In this document: one piece after another, positions 4,289 through 32,764 of the stretch
How the letters are laid out: each line of letters starts with the position of its first letter
Position numbering within the stretch: position 1 is the stretch's first letter
Assembly: GCA_902778145.1 (NCBI GenBank)
Contig: CACYWW010000014.1
Coordinates: 1 to 37,769, forward strand
Direction: 5' to 3'
DNA: 37,769 nt
Origin: an uncultured Ruminococcus sp.
Lineage (GTDB): Bacteria; Bacillota; Clostridia; Oscillospirales; CAG-272
Notes under the pieces: generated by a model
Database searches by the model: none
Seen by the model: the letters and a program-made list of their open reading frames with translations, nothing else
What the model was told of the DNA's origin: nothing
Translations under genes and position numbers: made by a program

Positions 4289-4340
4289 GTGTAAGGAGAA
4301 AAAGTGAAGCATTTTGCCCGACGGCAAAATGTGAAATAAC

Positions 4341-4663
4341 GGCTTCGGATCCCCCTGCCTGTCTTGCGTTACTTCGATCAGGGGGATTCGTCTCGGATTT
4401 TGCAAAGCAATTTGCAAAAATCTGTGCGTGCGTGCTTTGCAAAATCCTTCGGTCACCGCGGAAAACGGTCCACCGGACCGTTTTCTTTTTCGCGGCTTCG
4501 AATCCACCCGCCTGTCTTGCGTTACTTCGATCAGGGGGATTCGTCTCGGATTTTGCAAAGCAATTTGCGGTAATTTGTCCGTGCGTGCTTTGCAAAATCC
4601 TTCGGTCACCGCGGAAAACGGTCCACCGGACCGTTTTCTATTTCGCGGCTTCGAATCCCCCTG
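4341..4663. repeat. 153-bp tandem repeat, two full copies and a partial third
   Basis: GGCTTCG begins copies at 4341, 4494 and 4647, exactly 153 bases apart. The third copy stops after about 17 bases. Each full unit contains three inverted repeats. The first is a C-rich/G-rich pair around a 21-nt loop (4350-4357 with 4379-4386), intact only in copy 1. The second is a perfect 14-bp pair (4396-4409 with 4433-4446). The third is a perfect 11-bp hairpin with 3-nt loop followed by a T run (4461-4485), repeated at +153. The G-rich arm CAGGGGGATTCG (4379-4390, 4532-4543) and its inverse (4652-4663) match the T-arm of the tRNA-Arg at 32.7 kb. No gene is evident from 4100 to 4700; ORFs across it exist only because 153 is a multiple of three. 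Confidence 0.85.
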
Positions 4664-4676
4664 TATGAAGAAAAAA

Positions 4677-4722
4677 GCCAAATACAAAAGCGGGCGTTTT
4701 TACGCCCGCTTTTGTATTTGGC
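4677..4722. terminator. Bidirectional terminator overlapping the integrase stop
   Basis: A perfect 20-bp stem (4677-4696 with 4703-4722), 6-nt loop, with A-rich and T-rich shoulders. The last residues of the integrase (about GQIQKRA) and its stop codon are encoded inside the right arm and loop. It would end the leftward lysogeny transcript. Confidence 0.75.
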
Positions 4723-6223
4723 CTCCCGAAAAATCTATATCCGAACCCGTGAGGGTGTCGGGGATGGGGGCGGTTATTTCGTTGTTTTCGCCGGTAAAAT
4801 TCAGCGATATGAGGATCCGGTCATCGTAGACGATCACGCGGTTAACGAACGTATCGATCAAGCGCGAGCGATATGCCGGATCGTTCGGGTCGCCTCCTCT
4901 GAACGACGTTATGAAAAACACGATCTGTTCTTTGTTAATTCCCGGCGACTTCACGCTTTCGGCGGTGAGATCTATCTTGATAGACTCGGCCTCCGCCTCC
5001 AGCTCGCGGAGCCTTGCCGCGGTCGTTTCGGTGAATACGCCCGCCTCGATCGCTTTCATGATATTTGAGATCGCCGTCTCCGTGCGCTTCAGGTTATCCC
5101 GGAGCGCCGCCTCGGTGCTGTTGTCCTTCTCTTCGAGCTGGACGTCGACGCAGCGCTGCGCAAGACGGTCGACCGCCCGGTCGTCCGATATAAAGGCGGT
5201 TATGTACTCGACGACGGTCTTTTCGAGCCATTCCTTCAGCACGCTTTTCTTATCACACGCGTGATCTCTTTTGCGCTTTTTGCACGAATAATAATAGTGG
5301 CGTTCCCCGCTCTTCCCGGTCCCGCTGTCGCCGAACATAGGCGAACCGCACCGGCCGCAGAACACTCTCCCGGTGAGCAGATATTTGATCCCTTTGCGCT
5401 TCGGCGCGACAGGGGTCTTTTTGTTTTTCTCGATCATATCCTGCACCTTTTCAAACTGGCGGTCTTCGATGATCCGCGGCACGCCTCCGGGCACGGTCAC
5501 GTCCGCCCATGAGTATTCACCGATATAAAATCTGTTGCTTATAATCCGCTGAACGGACTGCACGGTAAAGCTGTTCCCGCGTGACGTTCTGAATCCCGCG
5601 GCGTTCAGATCACGCATTATATCCGCCGGAAGCTTCCCGCTCTCGTACAGGTCGAAGATCCTGCGTACGACCGGAGACGTCACCGGATCGATCACGAACC
5701 GCTTTTCCGCGTCAACCGAATACCCGAGAGGGACAGCCGAGCCGTTATATCTGCACTTATAAGCCGATTCGCGCATTCCGCGTATGACCTTGCCGTTCAG
5801 CTCCGCGCTGTAATACTCCGCGAGCCCTTCGAGCAGGCTTTCAAGGATGATCCCCTCCGGTCCCTCCGGGATCCGCTCTTTTGCCGACAGCAGCGTCACG
5901 CCGTTACGGCGCAAAATCGCCTTGTTAATCGCTATGTCTTCACGGTTGCGTCCGAAACGGTCGATCTTCCATACGATCACATAATCGAACGTACGCGCGG
6001 CGCTGTCCCGGAGCATCTTCTGAAAGTCCGCTCTGTTGTCGTTCGTGCCGGTCTTCGCACGGTCGATATACGTACCGACGACGCGCAGATTATTGTCGTC
6101 GGCATACGCCCGGCATTCCCGGAGCTGTCCCTCAATGGACTGCTCCGTCTGCCGTTCGGACGAATACCGGGCGTATATCACGGCGCGCACTTTTTCAGGC
6201 GCCTGTAAAACTTTTTTGCTCAT
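4700..6223 (-). CDS. Large serine recombinase (phage integrase)
   Basis: A 507-residue large serine integrase that would join attP to attB. The N-terminal resolvase domain (about 12-150) has YARYSSERQ with catalytic Ser21, the IDR-FGRN segment near residues 87-93 and the E-helix. The recombinase DNA-binding domain covers about 160-265. A zinc ribbon has Cys289, Cys292, Cys314 and Cys323, and a coiled-coil region spans about 350-415. Length is normal for the family. It is the last gene of the lysogeny operon, overlapping the exonuclease gene by ATGA at 6220-6223, and is read toward the prophage left end. Its stop lies inside a terminator hairpin, so the C-terminus may sit at or over an att site. 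Confidence 0.95.
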   Translation of the reverse strand: MSKKVLQAPEKVRAVIYARYSSERQTEQSIEGQLRECRAYADDNNLRVVGTYIDRAKTGTNDNRADFQKMLRDSAARTFDYVIVWKIDRFGRNREDIAINKAILRRNGVTLLSAKERIPEGPEGIILESLLEGLAEYYSAELNGKVIRGMRESAYKCRYNGSAVPLGYSVDAEKRFVIDPVTSPVVRRIFDLYESGKLPADIMRDLNAAGFRTSRGNSFTVQSVQRIISNRFYIGEYSWADVTVPGGVPRIIEDRQFEKVQDMIEKNKKTPVAPKRKGIKYLLTGRVFCGRCGSPMFGDSGTGKSGERHYYYSCKKRKRDHACDKKSVLKEWLEKTVVEYITAFISDDRAVDRLAQRCVDVQLEEKDNSTEAALRDNLKRTETAISNIMKAIEAGVFTETTAARLRELEAEAESIKIDLTAESVKSPGINKEQIVFFITSFRGGDPNDPAYRSRLIDTFVNRVIVYDDRILISLNFTGENNEITAPIPDTLTGSDIDFSGGQIQKRA

Positions 6224-7152
6224 TCTTCCAGCATCTCATAAAATGCGTTTTCCGTGATCACCTGAATATCGATCCCGGCAAGGACGTATTCCTCTGCTTT
6301 TTTCTGCTTCGTCGTTTTTCCGTTCTTCACGTTCACCGAATAGTCGGTATTTCCGAGTATCAGAAAATTCGTCTTTTTTGTGATGCCGTTGTCGCAGATC
6401 CCGCCGACGTTGACGACGAGCTGCGCGGCCTCGGCTCTCGTCATCTTGTCGAGCGCTCCGGTAAAAACACAGTGTTTTCCGTAAAGCGGGTGCGTTTCGT
6501 CAAATTCGGTCGTATCCGCAGTGATCGTCCGGAGATCAAGTCCCGGCAAATGCGGCTTTTTAAAACTCTTCACGAGATCCGCGACGGACCCGCTCGCGTT
6601 TATCCGCTTTTTCATCTCTTCGAAACAGCGGAACGTCGTCACACAATCGTCATACGCGCGGTGTTCTCTCGTCTGATCGACGCCGAGCGTGCCGGCGATA
6701 TCCTTCAAGCGGTGATGTTTAAGATCCGGAAGCAGCTTTCGCGCGATCCTCATAGTATCGACAAAGTCGTTACCGAACGGCTTACCGTACGCCCGGACGC
6801 TGTTCTCATATATAAAATTTACGTCAAAATTCACGTTATGGCCGACGACAAGATCGCCGTCGATGAACGAGATGAACGGTGAGAGGGCATCTTTTACCGC
6901 CGGCGCGCCCTTCAGATCGTCGTTTGTGATACCCGTCAGATTCTGTACGAAATCGTCGATCTTATAACCGGGATTCACCAGCGTCGTGAAGCTGTCAACA
7001 ACGGCGCCGCCTCTGATACGCAGCGCAGCGAGCTCGATTATATCGTCGTATTCCGGCGCGTAACCCGTTGCTTCAATGTCGATGACTGTATAATCGTCGC
7101 ACAGATCAATAATATTGTTTCCTTTTCCCGGTCTTGTAATCGTTTTTGCCAT
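6220..7152 (-). CDS. DEDDh 3'-5' exonuclease fused to a BRCT domain
   Basis: A 310-residue two-domain protein. Residues about 20-185 form a DnaQ/Pol III epsilon-type exonuclease with all acidic motifs: VIDIEATG (Asp25, Glu27), GHNVNFDVNF (Asp110) and HRAYDD (His164, Asp169), so catalysis is expected. Residues about 222-310 form a BRCT domain (GKHCVFTGALDKMTRAEAAQLV, GGI, TNFLILG) as in NAD-dependent DNA ligases and RFC1. The start has a strong GGAGG. It lies 12 bases after the repressor gene and overlaps the integrase by ATGA, so it is expressed in the lysogen. The role is unknown: DNA processing during integration or excision, or attack on superinfecting DNA, are both inference. Confidence 0.88.
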   Translation of the reverse strand: MAKTITRPGKGNNIIDLCDDYTVIDIEATGYAPEYDDIIELAALRIRGGAVVDSFTTLVNPGYKIDDFVQNLTGITNDDLKGAPAVKDALSPFISFIDGDLVVGHNVNFDVNFIYENSVRAYGKPFGNDFVDTMRIARKLLPDLKHHRLKDIAGTLGVDQTREHRAYDDCVTTFRCFEEMKKRINASGSVADLVKSFKKPHLPGLDLRTITADTTEFDETHPLYGKHCVFTGALDKMTRAEAAQLVVNVGGICDNGITKKTNFLILGNTDYSVNVKNGKTTKQKKAEEYVLAGIDIQVITENAFYEMLEE

Positions 7153-7164
7153 TTTCTGCCTCCG

Positions 7165-7773
7165 TTAAAATTTTTGCCTGTTCTCGATCACTTTTCCAAG
7201 GATAGTGACCGGAAGCTGTTCGATCTGTTTGTTTGTGAAAAACATCGGGGCGTAATTTGAATTGAACGGGATCAGCATGATGCCGTCGTCGGTGCGCTGG
7301 ATCTTTTTCAGCGTCGCCTCGTCACCGTTTACCATTACAACGCAGACGTCGCCGTTTTCGGCTGTCGGCTGACGCCTGACGATCACGACGTCGCCCGCGC
7401 AGATCCTCGGCTCCATACTGTCACCGGAGACGCGCAGCGCCATAAACTCACCGCTCGCGGCAAGCTCCGGCGTCAGCTCTTCGAAGTCGAGGATTTCCTC
7501 GACGGCCTCTACAGGAAGCCCGGCGTGTACGATACCGATAACGGGGATTTTTACTCCCTTGCCGGACACGTTAACCTCTCCGTTTTTCTCAGATATCAGA
7601 AAATCAACGGATACGCCCAAATAGTCGGCGAGCTTTTTAAGAGAATTATAGTTCGGCATTTTTCCGGATTTCCAGTTTGACGTCGATGAAGTGCTCAAGC
7701 CGAGTTCCGTGCACACCTTCGTTATGTTTGTGCCTTTGGCTTTGCATATTCGTTTCAAGCGTTCGTAAAACAT
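7165..7773 (-). CDS. LexA/CI-like phage repressor (HTH-XRE plus S24 peptidase)
   Basis: From ATG 7773 (AAAGGGGTG upstream) the protein has 202 residues. Residues 3-60 are an XRE helix-turn-helix (NITKVCTELGLSTSSTSNWKSG). Residues about 75-200 are the S24 self-cleavage domain with scissile Ala84-Gly85 (HAGLPVEA), nucleophile Ser119 (VSGDSMEP) and general base Lys156 (EATLKKI). This predicts RecA-stimulated autocleavage, so the prophage should be induced by DNA damage. First gene of the leftward operon. It probably binds the AACATC half-sites in the adjacent switch region. A ten-residue longer reading from 7803 lacks a good ribosome site. Confidence 0.93.
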   Translation of the reverse strand: MFYERLKRICKAKGTNITKVCTELGLSTSSTSNWKSGKMPNYNSLKKLADYLGVSVDFLISEKNGEVNVSGKGVKIPVIGIVHAGLPVEAVEEILDFEELTPELAASGEFMALRVSGDSMEPRICAGDVVIVRRQPTAENGDVCVVMVNGDEATLKKIQRTDDGIMLIPFNSNYAPMFFTNKQIEQLPVTILGKVIENRQKF

Positions 7774-7828
7774 AAAACACCCCTTTTTGTGCAAAACCGC
7801 CAAAAATCACTGTTGTTTTTTTACACTC

Positions 7829-7903
7829 TTTTTCGATGTTTTTTGTAAATCACGCTTGACAAACATCTTTTTGTAGTGTATAATATCGTCGAACATCGAA
7901 AAA
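7829..7903. promoter_or_regulatory. Operator candidates around the rightward promoter
   Basis: A perfect 12-bp inverted repeat, TTTTTCGATGTT (7829-7840) and AACATCGAAAAA (7892-7903), brackets the rightward promoter. A third AACATC lies inside its spacer (7862-7867), and AACATCAAAAA recurs at 8020-8030 beyond the leftward promoter. These are the best candidates for repressor half-sites. Binding is inferred. Confidence 0.6.
7856..7884 (+). promoter_or_regulatory. Rightward early promoter, perfect consensus
   Basis: TTGACA (7856-7861), 17-bp spacer, TATAAT (7879-7884). It is expected to start at about 7891 and transcribe the early genes from 8045 with a leader of about 155 nt. It points directly at the leftward promoter at 8005-7977. 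Confidence 0.85.
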
Positions 7904-7976
7904 ACGGCAAAAATCGCCGAATAATCGAGTTCATACGGCAAAGGCGGTTTATATTCGTAATGTGTTCAGCAAGCTC

Positions 7977-8005
7977 ATTATAGCATATAAATACGCCTTT
8001 GTCAA
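7977..8005 (-). promoter_or_regulatory. Leftward lysogeny promoter, perfect consensus
   Basis: On the minus strand TTGACA (8005-8000), 17-bp spacer, TATAAT (7982-7977). The transcript should start at about 7970, cross the rightward promoter and run into the repressor gene with a leader of about 200 nt. It therefore overlaps the rightward transcript by about 80 nt. Confidence 0.83.
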
Positions 8006-8044
8006 CCAAAAACGCAAAAAACATCAAAAAAGAGAGGTAAAAGC

Positions 8045-8251
8045 ATGGACAAAAGAACATTCTACAGCTGCAACGAAGCTGCCGTCATTCTCGGATGTCA
8101 TCGTCAGACAGTAAAGGCGATGATCGAGCGCGGTGAGCTGAGAGGCCAGCGCATGCACCCGGGCATGAAGAAAAGCAAATACGTGATCCCCGTGTCCGAG
8201 GTGATGCGCAAAAAGGCCGAATGGGAAAACGGCGTCGCTTATGCAGAATGA
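8045..8251 (+). CDS. Small helix-turn-helix protein, excisionase/MerR-like
   Basis: A 68-residue protein with the pattern of DNA-binding excisionase-family proteins: an N-terminal winged-helix motif, CNEAAVILGCHRQTVKAMIERGELRGQR, followed by a wing ending KYVIPVSEV. GAGAGG lies 6-11 bases upstream of ATG 8045. As the first gene after the rightward promoter it could be the early regulator acting as Cro counterpart, or the recombination directionality factor that large serine integrases need for excision. The sequence does not say which. Confidence 0.75.
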   Translation: MDKRTFYSCNEAAVILGCHRQTVKAMIERGELRGQRMHPGMKKSKYVIPVSEVMRKKAEWENGVAYAE

Positions 8252-8450
8252 TACGACGATCCGTATCGAGACCGTCCCGCCGAATGCGCGCGTTGACTAT
8301 GATCTTATGTCAGACAGAGTCTTCGACCAGTTCGCGCGGGACACCGTCGAGACCTGCCGCCGGTTCTTTGCCATTCCCGGCGTGCAGGAAAAATACGAAA
8401 TATGGCTGAAAGAGTACAGAAAGAAGCAAAAGGAGAGACAAACACAATGA
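8241..8450 (+). CDS. Hypothetical phage early protein
   Basis: A 69-residue protein, not recognised. It has an acidic N-terminal half and a basic, helical C-terminus (WLKEYRKKQKERQTQ). It starts inside the end of the HTH gene and overlaps the following small gene by ATGA, so it sits in a chain of translationally coupled early genes. The overlaps at both ends support that it is expressed. Confidence 0.6.
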   Translation: MQNDTTIRIETVPPNARVDYDLMSDRVFDQFARDTVETCRRFFAIPGVQEKYEIWLKEYRKKQKERQTQ

Positions 8451-8578
8451 AAAAGAACCCCGGGAGAAAAGAACGCCGCCGGCTCGCGCGTCAAAACCGC
8501 AGATCCGACGGACGCGAGAGGGCGAAAAGAAACGAGCAGCTGCAGAAAGAAGCGGCCGCGGAAAGGAAACGGAAATGA
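8447..8578 (+). CDS. Very basic 43-residue peptide
   Basis: A small ORF starting ATGA at 8447 and ending at TGA 8576-8578. Well over a third of the residues are Arg or Lys (MKKNPGRKERRRLARQ at the start, AAAERKRK at the end). Start and stop both overlap neighbours by four bases, which is the pattern of the surrounding genes. It could bind nucleic acid, but no family is recognised. Confidence 0.55.
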   Translation: MKKNPGRKERRRLARQNRRSDGRERAKRNEQLQKEAAAERKRK

Positions 8579-8751
8579 AGATCAAGCAAACGAACATGTG
8601 CCCGTACTGCGGACGTGCGCTCAGGATCGACGTGAACGCGGAAAAGCAGCGTGATATCGTCCGCTGCGACTGCGGCGCCGATCTGCTGATACTGTCAGAG
8701 GTGCAGGTAAAAACGAAGATCTACCGCGTGACGATAGGCGAGGAGGAATGA
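8575..8751 (+). CDS. Small zinc-ribbon protein
   Basis: A 58-residue ORF with CPYCGRAL near the N-terminus and CDCGADLL about 22 residues later: two C-x(1-2)-C knuckles that would bind one zinc ion. ATGA overlaps join it to the genes on both sides. Phage proteins of this size and form are often annotated as Com-like or hypothetical. Function not assigned. Confidence 0.6.
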   Translation: MKIKQTNMCPYCGRALRIDVNAEKQRDIVRCDCGADLLILSEVQVKTKIYRVTIGEEE

Positions 8752-8942
8752 TGAACGATCATGGTTTCGATATTAACGGTCCGGCGCTGATCGATGCTTT
8801 TATCAAAGCTCATGCAAAGGCGACAGGAGACGAAAAAACGTTGAAGGTCGCTCGAATATTTGAAAAATACGGAGTATCTCTGATGGATGGTGTGGCAATG
8901 ACATTAGAGCTCATTGCTGCAATACAGGAGGAGCAAAAATAA
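8748..8942 (+). CDS. Hypothetical phage early protein
   Basis: A 64-residue protein that looks all-helical (ALIDAFIKAHAKATGDEKTLKVARIFEKYG). Two tandem ATG codons at 8748 and 8751 can serve as start. AGGAGGAA lies just upstream, inside the end of the zinc-ribbon gene. No family recognised. Confidence 0.6.
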   Translation: MMNDHGFDINGPALIDAFIKAHAKATGDEKTLKVARIFEKYGVSLMDGVAMTLELIAAIQEEQK

Positions 8943-8943
8943 C

Positions 8944-9267
8944 ATGACGATGATATCAAAGGCGTGCAAGGTCACGGCGGGCATTTTCGCGGCCGCGGTG
9001 ATCGTCCTTCTCATCGGGCTTGCGGGCCGCCTGGAAGGCGAAGACCGGCAGATCAAAGCCGGCGAAATGCTCCCGGAGCAGGCGATGACGCTTGACGAGA
9101 TCGGGGAGGACGCGGGCAAGGCGGCGGCGACGCTGGTCTGCTGCATAGTGTTCGCGACGATATCTCTTCTCATCGACACGCACGAAGCGAAAACGCCGTG
9201 CTTCACGGACGACGAAGATATGCCGTCGGTCATCCCGGCGGCGGGAGGTAAAAACAATGATACATAA
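8944..9267 (+). CDS. Small membrane protein with two transmembrane segments
   Basis: From ATG 8944, preceded by AGGAGG, the product has 107 residues. Hydrophobic segments lie at about 9-27 (VTAGIFAAAVIVLLIGLAG) and 61-77 (AAATLVCCIVFATISLL), separated by an acidic loop and followed by an acidic tail. Its early-region position argues against a holin. It may alter the host envelope or exclude other phages, but no family is recognised. Confidence 0.6.
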   Translation: MTMISKACKVTAGIFAAAVIVLLIGLAGRLEGEDRQIKAGEMLPEQAMTLDEIGEDAGKAAATLVCCIVFATISLLIDTHEAKTPCFTDDEDMPSVIPAAGGKNNDT

Positions 9268-9526
9268 CGTTAAGATCAGGTCACAGTATTACAACGCGCT
9301 GAAATCGGGGCTGAAAAAGTTCGAGATCAGAAAAAACGACCGCGGATACAAGGTCGGGGATCTGCTCGCGCTGAACGAGATCGACAACGGAGGCAACTAC
9401 ACCGACCGCGCGGCGGTCTGCAAGATCGTTTATATCCTTGACGGCTTTGAAGGGCTCTCCGCCGACTACGTCGCGCTCGGCGTCGAGCTGCTCCTCGCGG
9501 ATTCGGGAGGTACGTATGACGGCTAA
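9257..9526 (+). CDS. DUF3850 / ASCH-like domain protein
   Basis: An 89-residue protein matching the DUF3850 pattern: an initial strand, YYNALKSGLKKFEIRKNDRGYKVGDLLALNE, and a final VYILDGFEGLSADYVALGVEL. The family is a small beta-barrel related to ASCH/PUA folds, thought to bind RNA and common in phage early regions. GGGAGG precedes ATG 9257, which overlaps the previous gene. Confidence 0.8.
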   Translation: MIHNVKIRSQYYNALKSGLKKFEIRKNDRGYKVGDLLALNEIDNGGNYTDRAAVCKIVYILDGFEGLSADYVALGVELLLADSGGTYDG

Positions 9527-10007
9527 AGAGGCGTTATCGCTGATGAAGAACAAGTCGTACGTCAAGTGGTACGACTCGCGCTCCGACAGTTTCCATTACG
9601 GGCGGTACATTGAGCTTTTGCAGATCTACCACGGCAGGCACCCGCAGGACATAGGAGAGCCACCGAGGCTGATCACGAACGCGAGGATCCGCGTATCAGA
9701 CATCTGCACCGTCTTCGTCGCTCTGAAAGACCTGTATCCGTATTCGGTCTCCGACGATATGATCCGGAACGATTACGACAAAAAGCTTGAGAAGATCGGC
9801 CGCGCCCAGCGCGCGCGTCTGTACAAGAGGTGTCCGCGGTGCGGCGGGAAGCTCGCCGACGAGCTTGTCGACAACACGGTATCGAAGCGTGACGGACGCG
9901 TCCTTGTGTGTCCCCGGTGCGGAAAGACGGAAGTCTTCTGCGACGAAAACGGTATAGCCGATCCGTTCACGGACTGGTGGTGTTTTCTTACGGAGGACGA
10001 GATATGA
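9516..10007 (+). CDS. Zinc-ribbon phage protein of unknown function
   Basis: From ATG 9516 (GGGAGG upstream, inside the end of the DUF3850 gene) the product is 163 residues. The N-terminal half has no recognised domain. Residues about 110-145 contain RCPRCGGKL and VLVCPRCGKTEVFC, a four-cysteine zinc ribbon. The C-terminus ends in an acidic DWWCFLTEDEI. Probably nucleic-acid or protein binding. Function not assigned. Confidence 0.65.
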   Translation: MTAKEALSLMKNKSYVKWYDSRSDSFHYGRYIELLQIYHGRHPQDIGEPPRLITNARIRVSDICTVFVALKDLYPYSVSDDMIRNDYDKKLEKIGRAQRARLYKRCPRCGGKLADELVDNTVSKRDGRVLVCPRCGKTEVFCDENGIADPFTDWWCFLTEDEI

Positions 10008-10135
10008 GAGGGCAAAAAAAGATCCCCGGAGGTCTCCGGAGATCGGTCTTGAGTGTGCGCGGCAGCGGTCGGCAAATCGGCGCCGCGCTTCACTTTCCCC
10101 TATTATATCACAAGGAGAGAGAAAATGCAAGATAA
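10004..10135 (+). CDS. Possible 43-residue basic peptide
   Basis: An ORF opens at ATGA 10004, overlapping the previous stop, and ends at 10135, overlapping the next gene start at 10125. It covers a stretch that would otherwise be a 117-base gap. The DNA also contains a tight hairpin (10026-10031 with 10034-10039), so this may be leader sequence instead. Coding support is only positional. Confidence 0.3.
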   Translation: MRGQKKIPGGLRRSVLSVRGSGRQIGAALHFPLLYHKERENAR

Positions 10136-10469
10136 AAACGACAATATCCTGAAAGTTTTATATAAAGAGCCGTTTTGCCCGCCGGTCGTGGTCGACTGTA
10201 CGCTCAAAAGACTTGAAAAAATGCTTACGGCGGACGGCGGAAAGATCGAAAAAATGCGCTTTGCGTCAGACGTCGAGATCATATACGCGAACAACGGCAC
10301 TCTTAACTTCATGTGCGGGTTCGACTGGGTAAAGGGGCCCGCGGCGTTCGTGGGCAAAGGCAGGCACGAAGGCGTATTCATGCCGCTCACACAGGCGCGT
10401 ATCAACGCGATCAGATATCTTTTCAAATGGGAGGACAAGGATAATGCAGAAAACACCAAGATACATTGA
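10125..10469 (+). CDS. DUF3846-like protein
   Basis: From ATG 10125 (AAGGAGAG upstream) the product is 114 residues. The order ILKVLYKEPFCPPVVVDCTLKRLEKMLTADGG, then a strand with DVEIIYANNGTLNFM, fits DUF3846, a family found in phages and conjugative elements of Firmicutes with no known function. The C-terminus extends over the start of the next ORF and contains the first copy of the 39-bp duplication. Confidence 0.55.
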   Translation: MQDKNDNILKVLYKEPFCPPVVVDCTLKRLEKMLTADGGKIEKMRFASDVEIIYANNGTLNFMCGFDWVKGPAAFVGKGRHEGVFMPLTQARINAIRYLFKWEDKDNAENTKIH

Positions 10470-14577: not shown

Positions 14578-14732
14578 GCGGACGCGTCCGCTTAATGTCT
14601 CGAATATCAATCTTAAAAGCTCGACCGTCTCTTATAAAAAGAGGCGGGGCGACTTCTATCACGAAAAGAGGGGTGCGCGGTACGGCATGACAGCGCGGCC
14701 GTGCCGCCTCTGACCGTGCGGGCGTCAGCCCG
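14578..14732. other. Structured gap upstream of the HUH endonuclease (origin candidate)
   Basis: The 203-base gap 14549-14751 has no gene but dense dyad symmetry: a 14-bp palindrome GCGGACGCGTCCGC (14578-14591); an 8-bp pair at 14640-14647 and 14704-14711; nested within it a 9-bp pair with one G-U (14678-14686 with 14698-14706, 11-nt loop); and a small hairpin (14719-14723 with 14728-14732). A terminator role for the first palindrome is possible. A nicking origin for the adjacent HUH protein is an inference from position and structure. Confidence 0.4.
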
Positions 14733-14751
14733 TCACAAAGGAAGGGACAGG

Positions 14752-15525
14752 ATGAGAAGGACACGGATTTACAGGAAGCGGACGACGAGCACGGCGATCA
14801 CCGTCGAGGAAGAATACTATCCGGTATGGGAAGGGCCGAAGGGCAGGGGCAGAAAGCTCCGCCCGACGAGCGACGCCCAGCAGATCCTCAACGACAAAAA
14901 GAGTCTGAAGCACTTCACCGACCTGGTCAACAACAATTTCAGACAGTACGAAGACCTGAAGATCGAGCTCACATACTGCGACGCCCGCAAACCCGACGGC
15001 ATCGATGACGCGCGCCGGCTTCACGCCGCTTTTGTCCGCCGCCTCCGCCGCTGGTACGAACGGCGCGGCAAAGAGCTCAAATACGTCGTCGTCGACGAGA
15101 TCGGCAAAAACGGGACGATGCGTCCGCATCATCACATGCTGATCACCGGCGGGATCGATTACAAAACGCTCAAAACGCTGTGGGGCAACGGAAGCGTGAA
15201 TATCTCGCCGATCGATTACGAGCAGTACGGCTCCGCGTCATGGTGCGAATACGTGTTCAAGGATCCGCGTTACTCGCGCAAATGGCGCGGGTCCCGCAAC
15301 CTCACGCCGCCGGACGTAAAGGAACGCGACAGCGAGAACAACGGCAAGACCGCCGTCAAGCTCCTCAGATCGTTCGAATCCGGAAAGCCCTTCGCACCGG
15401 CGCGCCCGGGATATACGGCGGAGCGCGTCGAGATCAAACGAAATCCGTACAACAAGGACGTATACGTGCGTATACGGTGGGTAAAGGAGGACCTATATGA
15501 AGATCGTCGGAAATCTGCTGTGTGA
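14752..15525 (+). CDS. HUH rolling-circle replication endonuclease-like protein
   Basis: From ATG 14752 (GGAAGGG upstream) the protein has 257 residues. It shows the two hallmarks of HUH nucleases: a histidine triad RPHHHMLITGG (His126-His128) for metal binding, preceded by the strand YVVVDEIGKNG, and a candidate nucleophile Tyr167 in CEYVFKDPRYSRKWRGSRNL. This order resembles the ORF2/G2P-type replication-associated proteins of filamentous phages and gut mobile elements. It would nick one strand at an origin and attach to the 5' end. No helicase, primase or polymerase gene is seen in the prophage, so this is the main replication candidate. An in-frame extension to 14701 would run into the hairpins and is disfavoured. 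Confidence 0.72.
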   Translation: MRRTRIYRKRTTSTAITVEEEYYPVWEGPKGRGRKLRPTSDAQQILNDKKSLKHFTDLVNNNFRQYEDLKIELTYCDARKPDGIDDARRLHAAFVRRLRRWYERRGKELKYVVVDEIGKNGTMRPHHHMLITGGIDYKTLKTLWGNGSVNISPIDYEQYGSASWCEYVFKDPRYSRKWRGSRNLTPPDVKERDSENNGKTAVKLLRSFESGKPFAPARPGYTAERVEIKRNPYNKDVYVRIRWVKEDLYEDRRKSAV

Positions 15526-32687: not shown

Positions 32688-32764
32688 TGGCCTACCCAGG
32701 GGGATTCGAACCCCCAACCGTCAGAATCGGAATCTGATACTCTATCCAATTGCGCTATGGGTAG
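32688..32764 (-). tRNA. tRNA-Arg (anticodon CCG)
   Basis: A 77-nt tRNA with a perfect 7-bp acceptor stem (CTACCCA with TGGGTAG), encoded 3' CCA, and anticodon loop TTCCGAT closed by TCAGA/TCTGA. The T-arm is GGGGG-TTCGAAT-CCCCC. The D-stem, GCGC with GAGT, has one G-A mismatch and one G-U, as in some arginine tRNAs. It reads CGG codons. Its 3' end faces the prophage, the standard position for a tRNA that served as attB. Confidence 0.95.
32697..32708 (+). other. Candidate attR core (12 bp shared with the left end)
   Basis: CAGGGGGATTCG here, in the T-arm of tRNA-Arg, recurs in the same orientation at 4379-4390 and 4532-4543. A 12-bp identity is enough for a serine-integrase core, but the left copies belong to a tandem repeat and the match does not run to the tRNA 3' end. 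A shorter alternative pair is TGGCCT at 4719-4724 and 32688-32693. Confidence 0.25.

Follow-up and report, generated by a model that had tools for sequence, protein, structure and literature searches.

Face-to-face promoters and a candidate RNA hairpin in a predicted lysis-lysogeny switch of a clostridial temperate phage

Introduction

How can a lysogeny switch operate if its two promoters are aimed at each other? The question is raised by a stretch of 37,769 nucleotides from an uncultured Ruminococcus sp. (contig CACYWW010000014.1), the whole of which is called the window (WIN) here. From its sequence, it had been predicted that two perfect-consensus promoters face each other in a lysogeny switch, an arrangement known from the unrelated coliphage 186, and that AACATC half-sites lie at these promoters. 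We analyzed the two promoters, the sites around them, and their counterparts in relatives of the repressor and in IMG/VR contigs. The features of the locus are collected in Table 1.

Table 1. Features of the predicted switch and of the adjoining genes in the window
Feature	Position	Strand	Remarks
Large serine recombinase (integrase)	4700..6223	-	Overlaps the exonuclease gene by 4 bases
DnaQ-like exonuclease with BRCT domain	6220..7152	-	Same strand after the repressor; between repressor and recombinase
CI-type repressor, HTH + S24 (LexA-like)	7165..7773	-	Pfam PF00717 1.4e-29, HTH_3 3.2e-7
Immunity module differing between window and L041	7455..8010		From per-bin identity
Candidate CI operator upstream of lytic promoter, ACACT-N7-GATGT	7823..7839	+	17 bp
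Left arm of perfect 12-bp inverted repeat	7829..7840		
Lytic (rightward) promoter, TTGACA-17-TATAAT	7856..7884	+	12/12 match; all hexamer bases retained in L041; predicted start ~7891
Candidate CI operator inside lytic promoter spacer, ACATC-N7-AGTGT (inverted site)	7863..7879	+	17 bp
Stretch transcribed on both strands	7891..7970		80 nt, from predicted start sites
Right arm of perfect 12-bp inverted repeat	7892..7903		
Inverted repeat/lytic-sense RNA hairpin	7937..8003	+	67 nt; arms 7937-7966 and 7972-8003; loop ~7967-7971; centred on lysogenic start
Lysogenic (leftward) promoter, TTGACA-17-TATAAT, TG before -10	7977..8005	-	12/12 match; all hexamer bases retained in L041; predicted start ~7970
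First lytic gene, HTH_17 Xis-like protein	8045..8251	+	PF12728 1.6e-8; phrog_2907 excisionase 1.1e-5

Results

Two perfect promoters face each other

The window holds just two exact matches to TTGACA-N17-TATAAT, one on each strand, and both are indeed 12/12 promoters with 17-nt spacers at the positions predicted for them (Table 1). With up to two mismatches allowed, 9 matches were found in the window, where 1.43 are expected; the scan for spacers other than 17 nt was restricted to 6500-9500. The intergenic region (7774-8044, 271 nt) has 35% GC against 55% for the window, and the expectation from base composition for a perfect promoter in it is 9e-5 per strand. A consensus match by itself is no proof of function, but the composition chance for both is about 1e-8 and both promoters are conserved in relatives; that the two matches arose by chance, or that one alone is used, is scarcely credible.

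The -10 elements face each other and are 92 bp apart. With start sites placed 7 nt past each -10 (~7891 and ~7970), the transcripts overlap by 80 nt, in agreement with the overlap of about 80 nt that had been predicted. The route from the rightward promoter to the early genes passes the lysogenic promoter, and the route from the leftward promoter to the repressor gene passes the lytic promoter and the candidate operators; since the leftward promoter sits beyond the rightward one, viewed from the repressor, each polymerase must cross the opposing promoter. The two promoters are equally perfect, and the sequence gives no sign which would win.

The repressor has the architecture of S24 (LexA/CI) autocleaving repressors, with an HTH, an S24 domain, an Ala-Gly site and a Ser/Lys dyad. 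Ala84, Gly85, Ser119 and Lys156 are invariant across eight aligned sequences (window included); we take Ala84-Gly85 to be a pair of the cleavage-site type and Ser119/Lys156 to be the dyad of this class. PF07022 scores 21.5 on the protein, just under its cut-off of 22. The best candidate for the promoter of this repressor gene is the leftward perfect promoter, since no other leftward promoter of at least 10/12 was found between the repressor start and 9500, where two 9/12 matches occur (8088-8059 and 9284-9257). Alternatively, the main product of the leftward promoter might be an RNA antisense to the lytic leader, with the repressor transcribed from an unrecognized proximal promoter. The lytic leader and the 5' end of the leftward transcript are complementary over ~80 nt, and face-to-face plasmid switches with antisense RNA exist; against this, there is no leftward promoter of at least 9/12 within 7774-7855, and 22/136 repressors have their promoter in this face-to-face position, which makes the antisense explanation improbable.

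The Xis-like protein encoded by the first lytic gene has no match to PF10743 and is a candidate equivalent of Apl, Cox or Cro. Rightward from it follow small ORFs and then a replication initiator gene (14701-15525), the product of which matches phage replication initiation proteins (phrog_3584). On the other strand, the exonuclease gene is perhaps cotranscribed with the repressor gene. Beside the recombinase gene lies a tandem repeat (4340-4658; 153-bp unit, 2.1 copies, 94% matches), which holds a 12-base match to a tRNA-Arg gene (32688-32764).

No Rfam match was obtained within 7700-8100. A terminator-like hairpin on the leftward strand (7919-7905) was discarded: the region has 5 such sites, shuffled sequences have 4.6, and by eye the sister prophage described below lacks such a T-run hairpin at this place. 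Pairing over long distances within the leftward leader was weaker (whole-leader z of -2.7 to +0.2 in six loci) than the lytic-sense hairpin of the window. Pairing of an inverted repeat, AAACCGCC / GGCGGTTT (7794-7801 and 7943-7950), would place the 5' end of the leftward leader close to the ribosome site of the repressor gene, and in the relative L042 a like pairing between the leader start and the region of the repressor ribosome site is predicted from other sequence.

A sister prophage differs in the immunity module

A sister prophage, L041, is present in another uncultured Ruminococcus sp., RUG10767 (CACWOQ010000028.1). Per 50-bp bin, it is 80-100% (mostly 94-100%) identical to the window over 6201-7450 and 8051-10450, and 44-84% identical over 7451-8000, that is, over the DNA-binding half of the repressor and the switch. 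The replacement is sharp, with boundaries within the repressor gene and just ahead of the Xis-like gene; the Xis proteins differ at one residue (99% identical). Both promoters of L041 are 12/12, and their -10 elements are 93 bp apart instead of 92. All 24 hexamer bases are identical, compared with 65% elsewhere in the intergenic region, and in seven other pairs 21 to 23 of the 24 were retained compared with 54-78% elsewhere. The exchange of the immunity module, as read from the alignment, leaves the promoters and their spacing in place. The locus has the appearance of a lysogeny switch in which the promoters face each other, as originally predicted, and this layout is conserved under sequence divergence.

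The four AACATC sequences were found where they had been predicted (7835 [inverted], 7862, 7892 and 8020), and the perfect 12-bp inverted repeat around the rightward promoter is real (TTTTTCGATGTT / AACATCGAAAAA). Four copies in the 271-nt intergenic region compare with 0.19 expected (P ~5e-5, for a motif picked after the fact), and no enrichment was seen over the whole window (13 versus 17.4 expected). AACATC as the operator stood up in part only: the half-sites do lie at the promoters, but ACACT-N7-GATGT at the lytic promoter fits better, and L041 has a different repeat in the same place. The two candidate operators of Table 1 are the only ACACT-N7-GATGT sites in the window, a motif likewise picked after the fact. 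The one inside the promoter spacer lies where L041 carries a TTCAC-N4-GTGAA repeat; L041 has three repeats near ACTTCACAAAAGTGAAGT in and upstream of its lytic promoter. L042 has TTCAC-N4-GTGAA-like repeats too, and the HTH segment of its repressor is nearly the same as that of L041. The candidate operators vary in step with the HTH: L041 and L042 are alike in both, and the window differs in both. Window and L041 resemble a natural heteroimmune pair: promoters and flanks are shared, candidate operators are not.

Promoter layout in the repressor family and in IMG/VR

The family set, assembled without the eight most distant loci (L007, L008 and L073-L078), comprised 143 sequences including the window and gave 136 distinct repressors with at least 370 nt upstream. 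A layout was assigned only if both promoters scored at least 10. Both were found in 70/136 repressors, 22 of them face-to-face, 44 back-to-back and 4 overlapping, whereas dinucleotide shuffles gave 0.5, 0.3 and 0.4 per set, respectively; the 66 repressors unclassified at this threshold had no lysogenic promoter (55), no lytic promoter (5) or neither (6). Back-to-back is thus the commoner layout in this repressor family, as had been stated for Firmicute siphophages. Among seven named phages, Lv-1, Wrath, phi37 and MPV1 look back-to-back with weak lysogenic promoters (scores of 9.5-10.5), phiRTG5 is overlapping, MCV1 gave no match, and Staphylococcus phage 2638A has weak matches alone, which would be face-to-face.

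Mapped onto a tree of the HTH domain (66 rows), the layout requires 4 changes compared with 18.5 for shuffled labels; 19/22 face-to-face members cluster together there, with no back-to-back member among them (SH-aLRT 93, not starred). The S24-domain tree requires 9 changes compared with 18.6. The results suggest that promoter layout goes with the DNA-binding domain of the repressor. A single face-to-face group is not rejected by the S24-domain tree (p-AU 0.33); therefore, no general module exchange is demonstrated, and the window/L041 mosaic is the sole direct case. Two other candidate markers of the layout were given up. PF07022, the HTH of 186 CI, was present in 5/22 face-to-face and 15/44 back-to-back members at E 0.01, which is no clear difference. 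An excisionase-like first gene was seen in the window, L041 and L002 but is not general: first genes were picked automatically (20/22 face-to-face loci listed, 18 of them with a pick; 38/44 back-to-back loci), and of the ten scanned from face-to-face members six passed the HTH_3 cut-off and one, that of L002, matched HTH_17, so that the other nine gave 0/9 for HTH_17 and 6/9 for HTH_3.

In IMG/VR, perfect face-to-face pairs were found at 63, 40 and 23 loci with gaps of 44-74, 75-105 and 106-136, and 20/63, 28/40 and 13/23 of these, respectively, are flanked by an outward CI/Cro-like HTH ORF. The figure for 80 perfect back-to-back loci retrieved from IMG/VR was 3/80; near-copies are included in these flank counts, and the back-to-back loci were not matched to the face-to-face ones as a control.

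A predicted hairpin in the lytic transcript is centred on the lysogenic start site

The lysogenic promoter of the window is itself part of a 67-nt inverted repeat, which is absent from the original prediction. The lytic-sense RNA over this promoter folds with a z of -6.0 (whole leader, -6.5), and z is -5.9 in L041 and -1.4 to -2.5 in L042, L002, L043 and L046. Since no T-run follows directly after it in the window, the hairpin is not an ordinary terminator. For comparison across loci, we counted the pairs whose centre lies no more than 5 nt from the lysogenic start, a measure that demands centring on the start site, so the position of the central loop is partly built in. The mean was 18.3 (shuffled, 6.1) at the lysogenic promoter of the 22 face-to-face members, and 4.7 (4.1) in the 44 back-to-back members; at the lytic promoter, it was 10.0 (5.9) and 4.8 (4.5), respectively. 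At least 15 centred pairs were present in 16/22 face-to-face members; the lysogenic sides in this count were listed by hand after the pair counts of the wider sets (below) had been seen. L353, L375, L411 and L421 have no centred pairs, L346 has 5 and L404 has 9. L346 and L404, which are tree outliers with weaker lysogenic promoters, and near-copies were dropped from the cluster, strand and geometry counts. At least 12 centred pairs, with the outer pair at about -35 and +33 and a loop of about 6 nt, were seen in 15/19 family members examined. Six members (L046, L359, L366, L367, L373 and L386) have in common a loop sequence at the lysogenic start, GTGG and then C or T, which may be a recognition element.

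Several of the other measures weigh against the hairpin. Between the window, L041 and L042, four pairs are changed on both sides, a number reached by 7/500 shuffles, and two other measures of covariation were reached by 51 and 70 of 500. Just 12/22 face-to-face members exceed 95% of shuffles, and a paired test on fold z between lysogenic and lytic windows of the family gave no difference (p 0.12). The ungapped dyad score exceeded shuffles in 6/22 lysogenic and 5/22 lytic promoters of face-to-face members, and in 1/44 and 5/44 of back-to-back members.

In wider sets, at least 18 centred pairs were found at 43/395 single perfect promoters and 12/146 in back-to-back pairs, at 1/24 and 1/20 in face-to-face pairs without an HTH ORF, and at 23/52 (gap 75-105) and 3/18 (gap 106-136) in those with one. 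The gap class 44-74 was omitted from these counts, and from the cluster and strand counts below, because its windows reach the other promoter. Beside an HTH ORF, 14/52 (gap 75-105) and 0/18 (gap 106-136) promoters of either side exceed 95% of shuffles. The 39 loci from IMG/VR formed 29 clusters, in which at least 15 pairs were present on the lysogenic side alone in 20, the lytic side alone in 3, both in 1 and neither in 5 (sign test for the lysogenic-side excess, 4.9e-4). This cluster count repeats the one with hand-listed sides under a fixed rule, by which the side of the longer outward HTH ORF (at least 100 aa) is lysogenic and pairs with a shorter HTH ORF are left out. The IMG/VR set is mostly independent of the family; one cluster is shared (L098, on the same contig as L360) and was omitted from the composition-matched strand test.

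Is this repeat an RNA element, or is it a DNA operator for the lytic regulator, such as an Xis- or Cro-like dimer? Apl and Cox sites lie between or over these promoters in P2-like phages, according to the accessible text of PMC7498355; such a repeat also occurs at the lytic promoter in 8/19 family clusters, and in the form of single-stranded DNA, too, the hairpin is stable (z -3.8). One point against an operator is the strand. The lytic-sense RNA was more stable than the opposite strand in 20/22 IMG/VR and 13/15 family hairpin cases, with more G-U pairs (60 versus 32 and 34 versus 20, respectively), while a sample of generic perfect promoters had no such bias (30/61). The bias survived composition-matched shuffling (37/47, p 2.9e-5), and therefore selection appears to act on the repeat as part of the lytic RNA and not as a DNA palindrome. 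Moreover, the arms are long (~24-40 nt) and bulged, and they change on both sides between the window and L041 although the Xis proteins differ at one residue only. On this balance, we consider a DNA operator unlikely, though it is the rival to be taken most seriously.

The palindrome might also be a by-product of promoter duplication, the arm opposite the lysogenic promoter being a decayed or second lytic promoter. TATAAT or TATGAT does occur in some mirrored arms (L042, L388, L406 and L041), but the mean best mirrored score of 15 hairpin members was 7.5, near the 6.9 of shuffled sequences; a mirrored-promoter origin is unsupported and, in our judgment, highly improbable.

Discussion

The locus very probably serves a temperate phage of a clostridial host as its lysis-lysogeny switch, built on the plan of P2 and 186 with an unrelated S24/LexA-type repressor; the roles of interference and of the operators we infer from sequence. 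At low repressor levels, the lytic promoter would fire, and its polymerases would clear or block the lysogenic promoter. Rising repressor would bind the candidate sites in and upstream of the lytic promoter and shut it, and the lysogenic promoter would thereby be freed, which amounts to positive feedback without activation. A polymerase from the lysogenic promoter must cross the repressor-bound sites, and this roadblock would cap the repressor level. Induction would come from SOS cleavage of the S24 repressor, if the RecA-dependent self-cleavage of its family extends to this protein, and the Xis-like product of the first lytic gene may act as a repressor of the lysogenic promoter.

The hairpin in the lytic RNA would most likely make the crossing asymmetric and favour the lytic transcript. 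The nascent hairpin would be complete as polymerase leaves the lysogenic -35 and could act by pausing it over the promoter; shielding from antisense pairing and processing by RNase III are alternatives. We tentatively propose, as a possibility rather than as the expected outcome, that face-to-face phage switches share an undescribed RNA part: a hairpin of the lytic transcript with its loop at the opposing lysogenic start and arms from about -35 to +33, kept as RNA despite very different sequences. It would tilt the collision to one side; pause-enhanced occlusion is one way in which this could happen, protection of the lytic leader from the antisense mRNA of the repressor another. A report of such a hairpin was not found in the open-licence literature searched for hairpins and stem-loops; within that literature, a hairpin on the lytic-sense RNA centred on the opposing lysogenic start is new here.

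The comparison with coliphage 186 was apt, and the 186 repressor is, as stated, unrelated to that of the window. The pR-pL pair of 186 likewise consists of face-to-face lytic and lysogenic promoters with overlapping transcripts, with 76 bp between the -10 elements (window, 92), the repressor gene beyond the lytic promoter and a small DNA-binding first lytic gene; 186 has CI sites at the lytic promoter, where the window has its candidate 17-bp sites. The 186 record places CI sites over pR and notes that convergent pR inhibits pL and that pL is activated when CI represses pR, and the accessible text of PMC7498355 states that the lytic promoter inhibits the lysogenic one, not vice versa. In contrast, 186 CI is PF07022 plus PF16452 and the window repressor HTH_3 plus S24 (PF00717), and an alignment of the two gave nothing meaningful (best E 1.7). 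In 186, int directly follows cI, whereas in the window an exonuclease and then a serine recombinase follow on the lysogenic strand, and the lysogenic promoter of the window, unlike that of 186, stops short of the first lytic gene. Over 186 pL, the lytic RNA has 22 centred pairs but folds no better than shuffles (z +0.2).

Phage P2 also has face-to-face promoters, Pe and Pc, with -10 elements 49 bp apart and repressor sites at the lytic promoter, and its Cox is both excisionase and Pc repressor. Where it crosses Pc, the P2 RNA has a fold about the Pc start (26 centred pairs, z -1.6). P2 C (99 aa, no S24 match) shares just the general HTH_3 family with the window repressor, and Cox is PF10743 where the Xis-like protein is HTH_17. 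As far as its sequence tells, the window switch would work like those of P2 and 186 but is not their relative.

Face-to-face promoters are not a matter of 186 alone, the one phage named for them in the original prediction: they recur in this repressor family, in IMG/VR contigs, in P2 and, by prediction, in two prophages of Clostridium clostridioforme LM41. For the latter, phi5 and phi12, convergent promoters were predicted with PhagePromoter in 2024 and their authors suggest 186-like interference in a clostridial lysogeny module (PMC11318856); predicted convergent promoters in clostridial prophages and the comparison with 186 are thus already published. These authors group phi5 and phi12 with ImmR/ImmA-like systems, and the accessible text of their paper does not mention a hairpin. 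In the accessible text on a C. difficile phage switch (PMC11172241), the words face-to-face and divergent do not occur.

The divergent CI/Cro promoters of the lambda type, with shared operators between them, are absent in the window; promoters are divergent in 44 relatives. A closer parallel is lambda PR-PRE, where the lytic polymerase crosses a convergent lysogeny promoter and pausing there strengthens interference or occlusion (PMC6593788). According to the accessible text of that paper, this pair differs from that of the window in that the promoters are 320 bp apart, the pause is at tR1 and the lysogeny promoter needs CII; the proposed pause element of the window is the palindrome of the lysogenic promoter itself. 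The same 2019 paper, as far as its text was accessible, states that pausing had been proposed as a widespread booster of interference, with lambda PR-PRE the only example observed (PMC6593788). The hairpin described here makes this question testable, and switches of the P2/186 style would then include those of a recurrent class of phages whose LexA-type repressors are unrelated.
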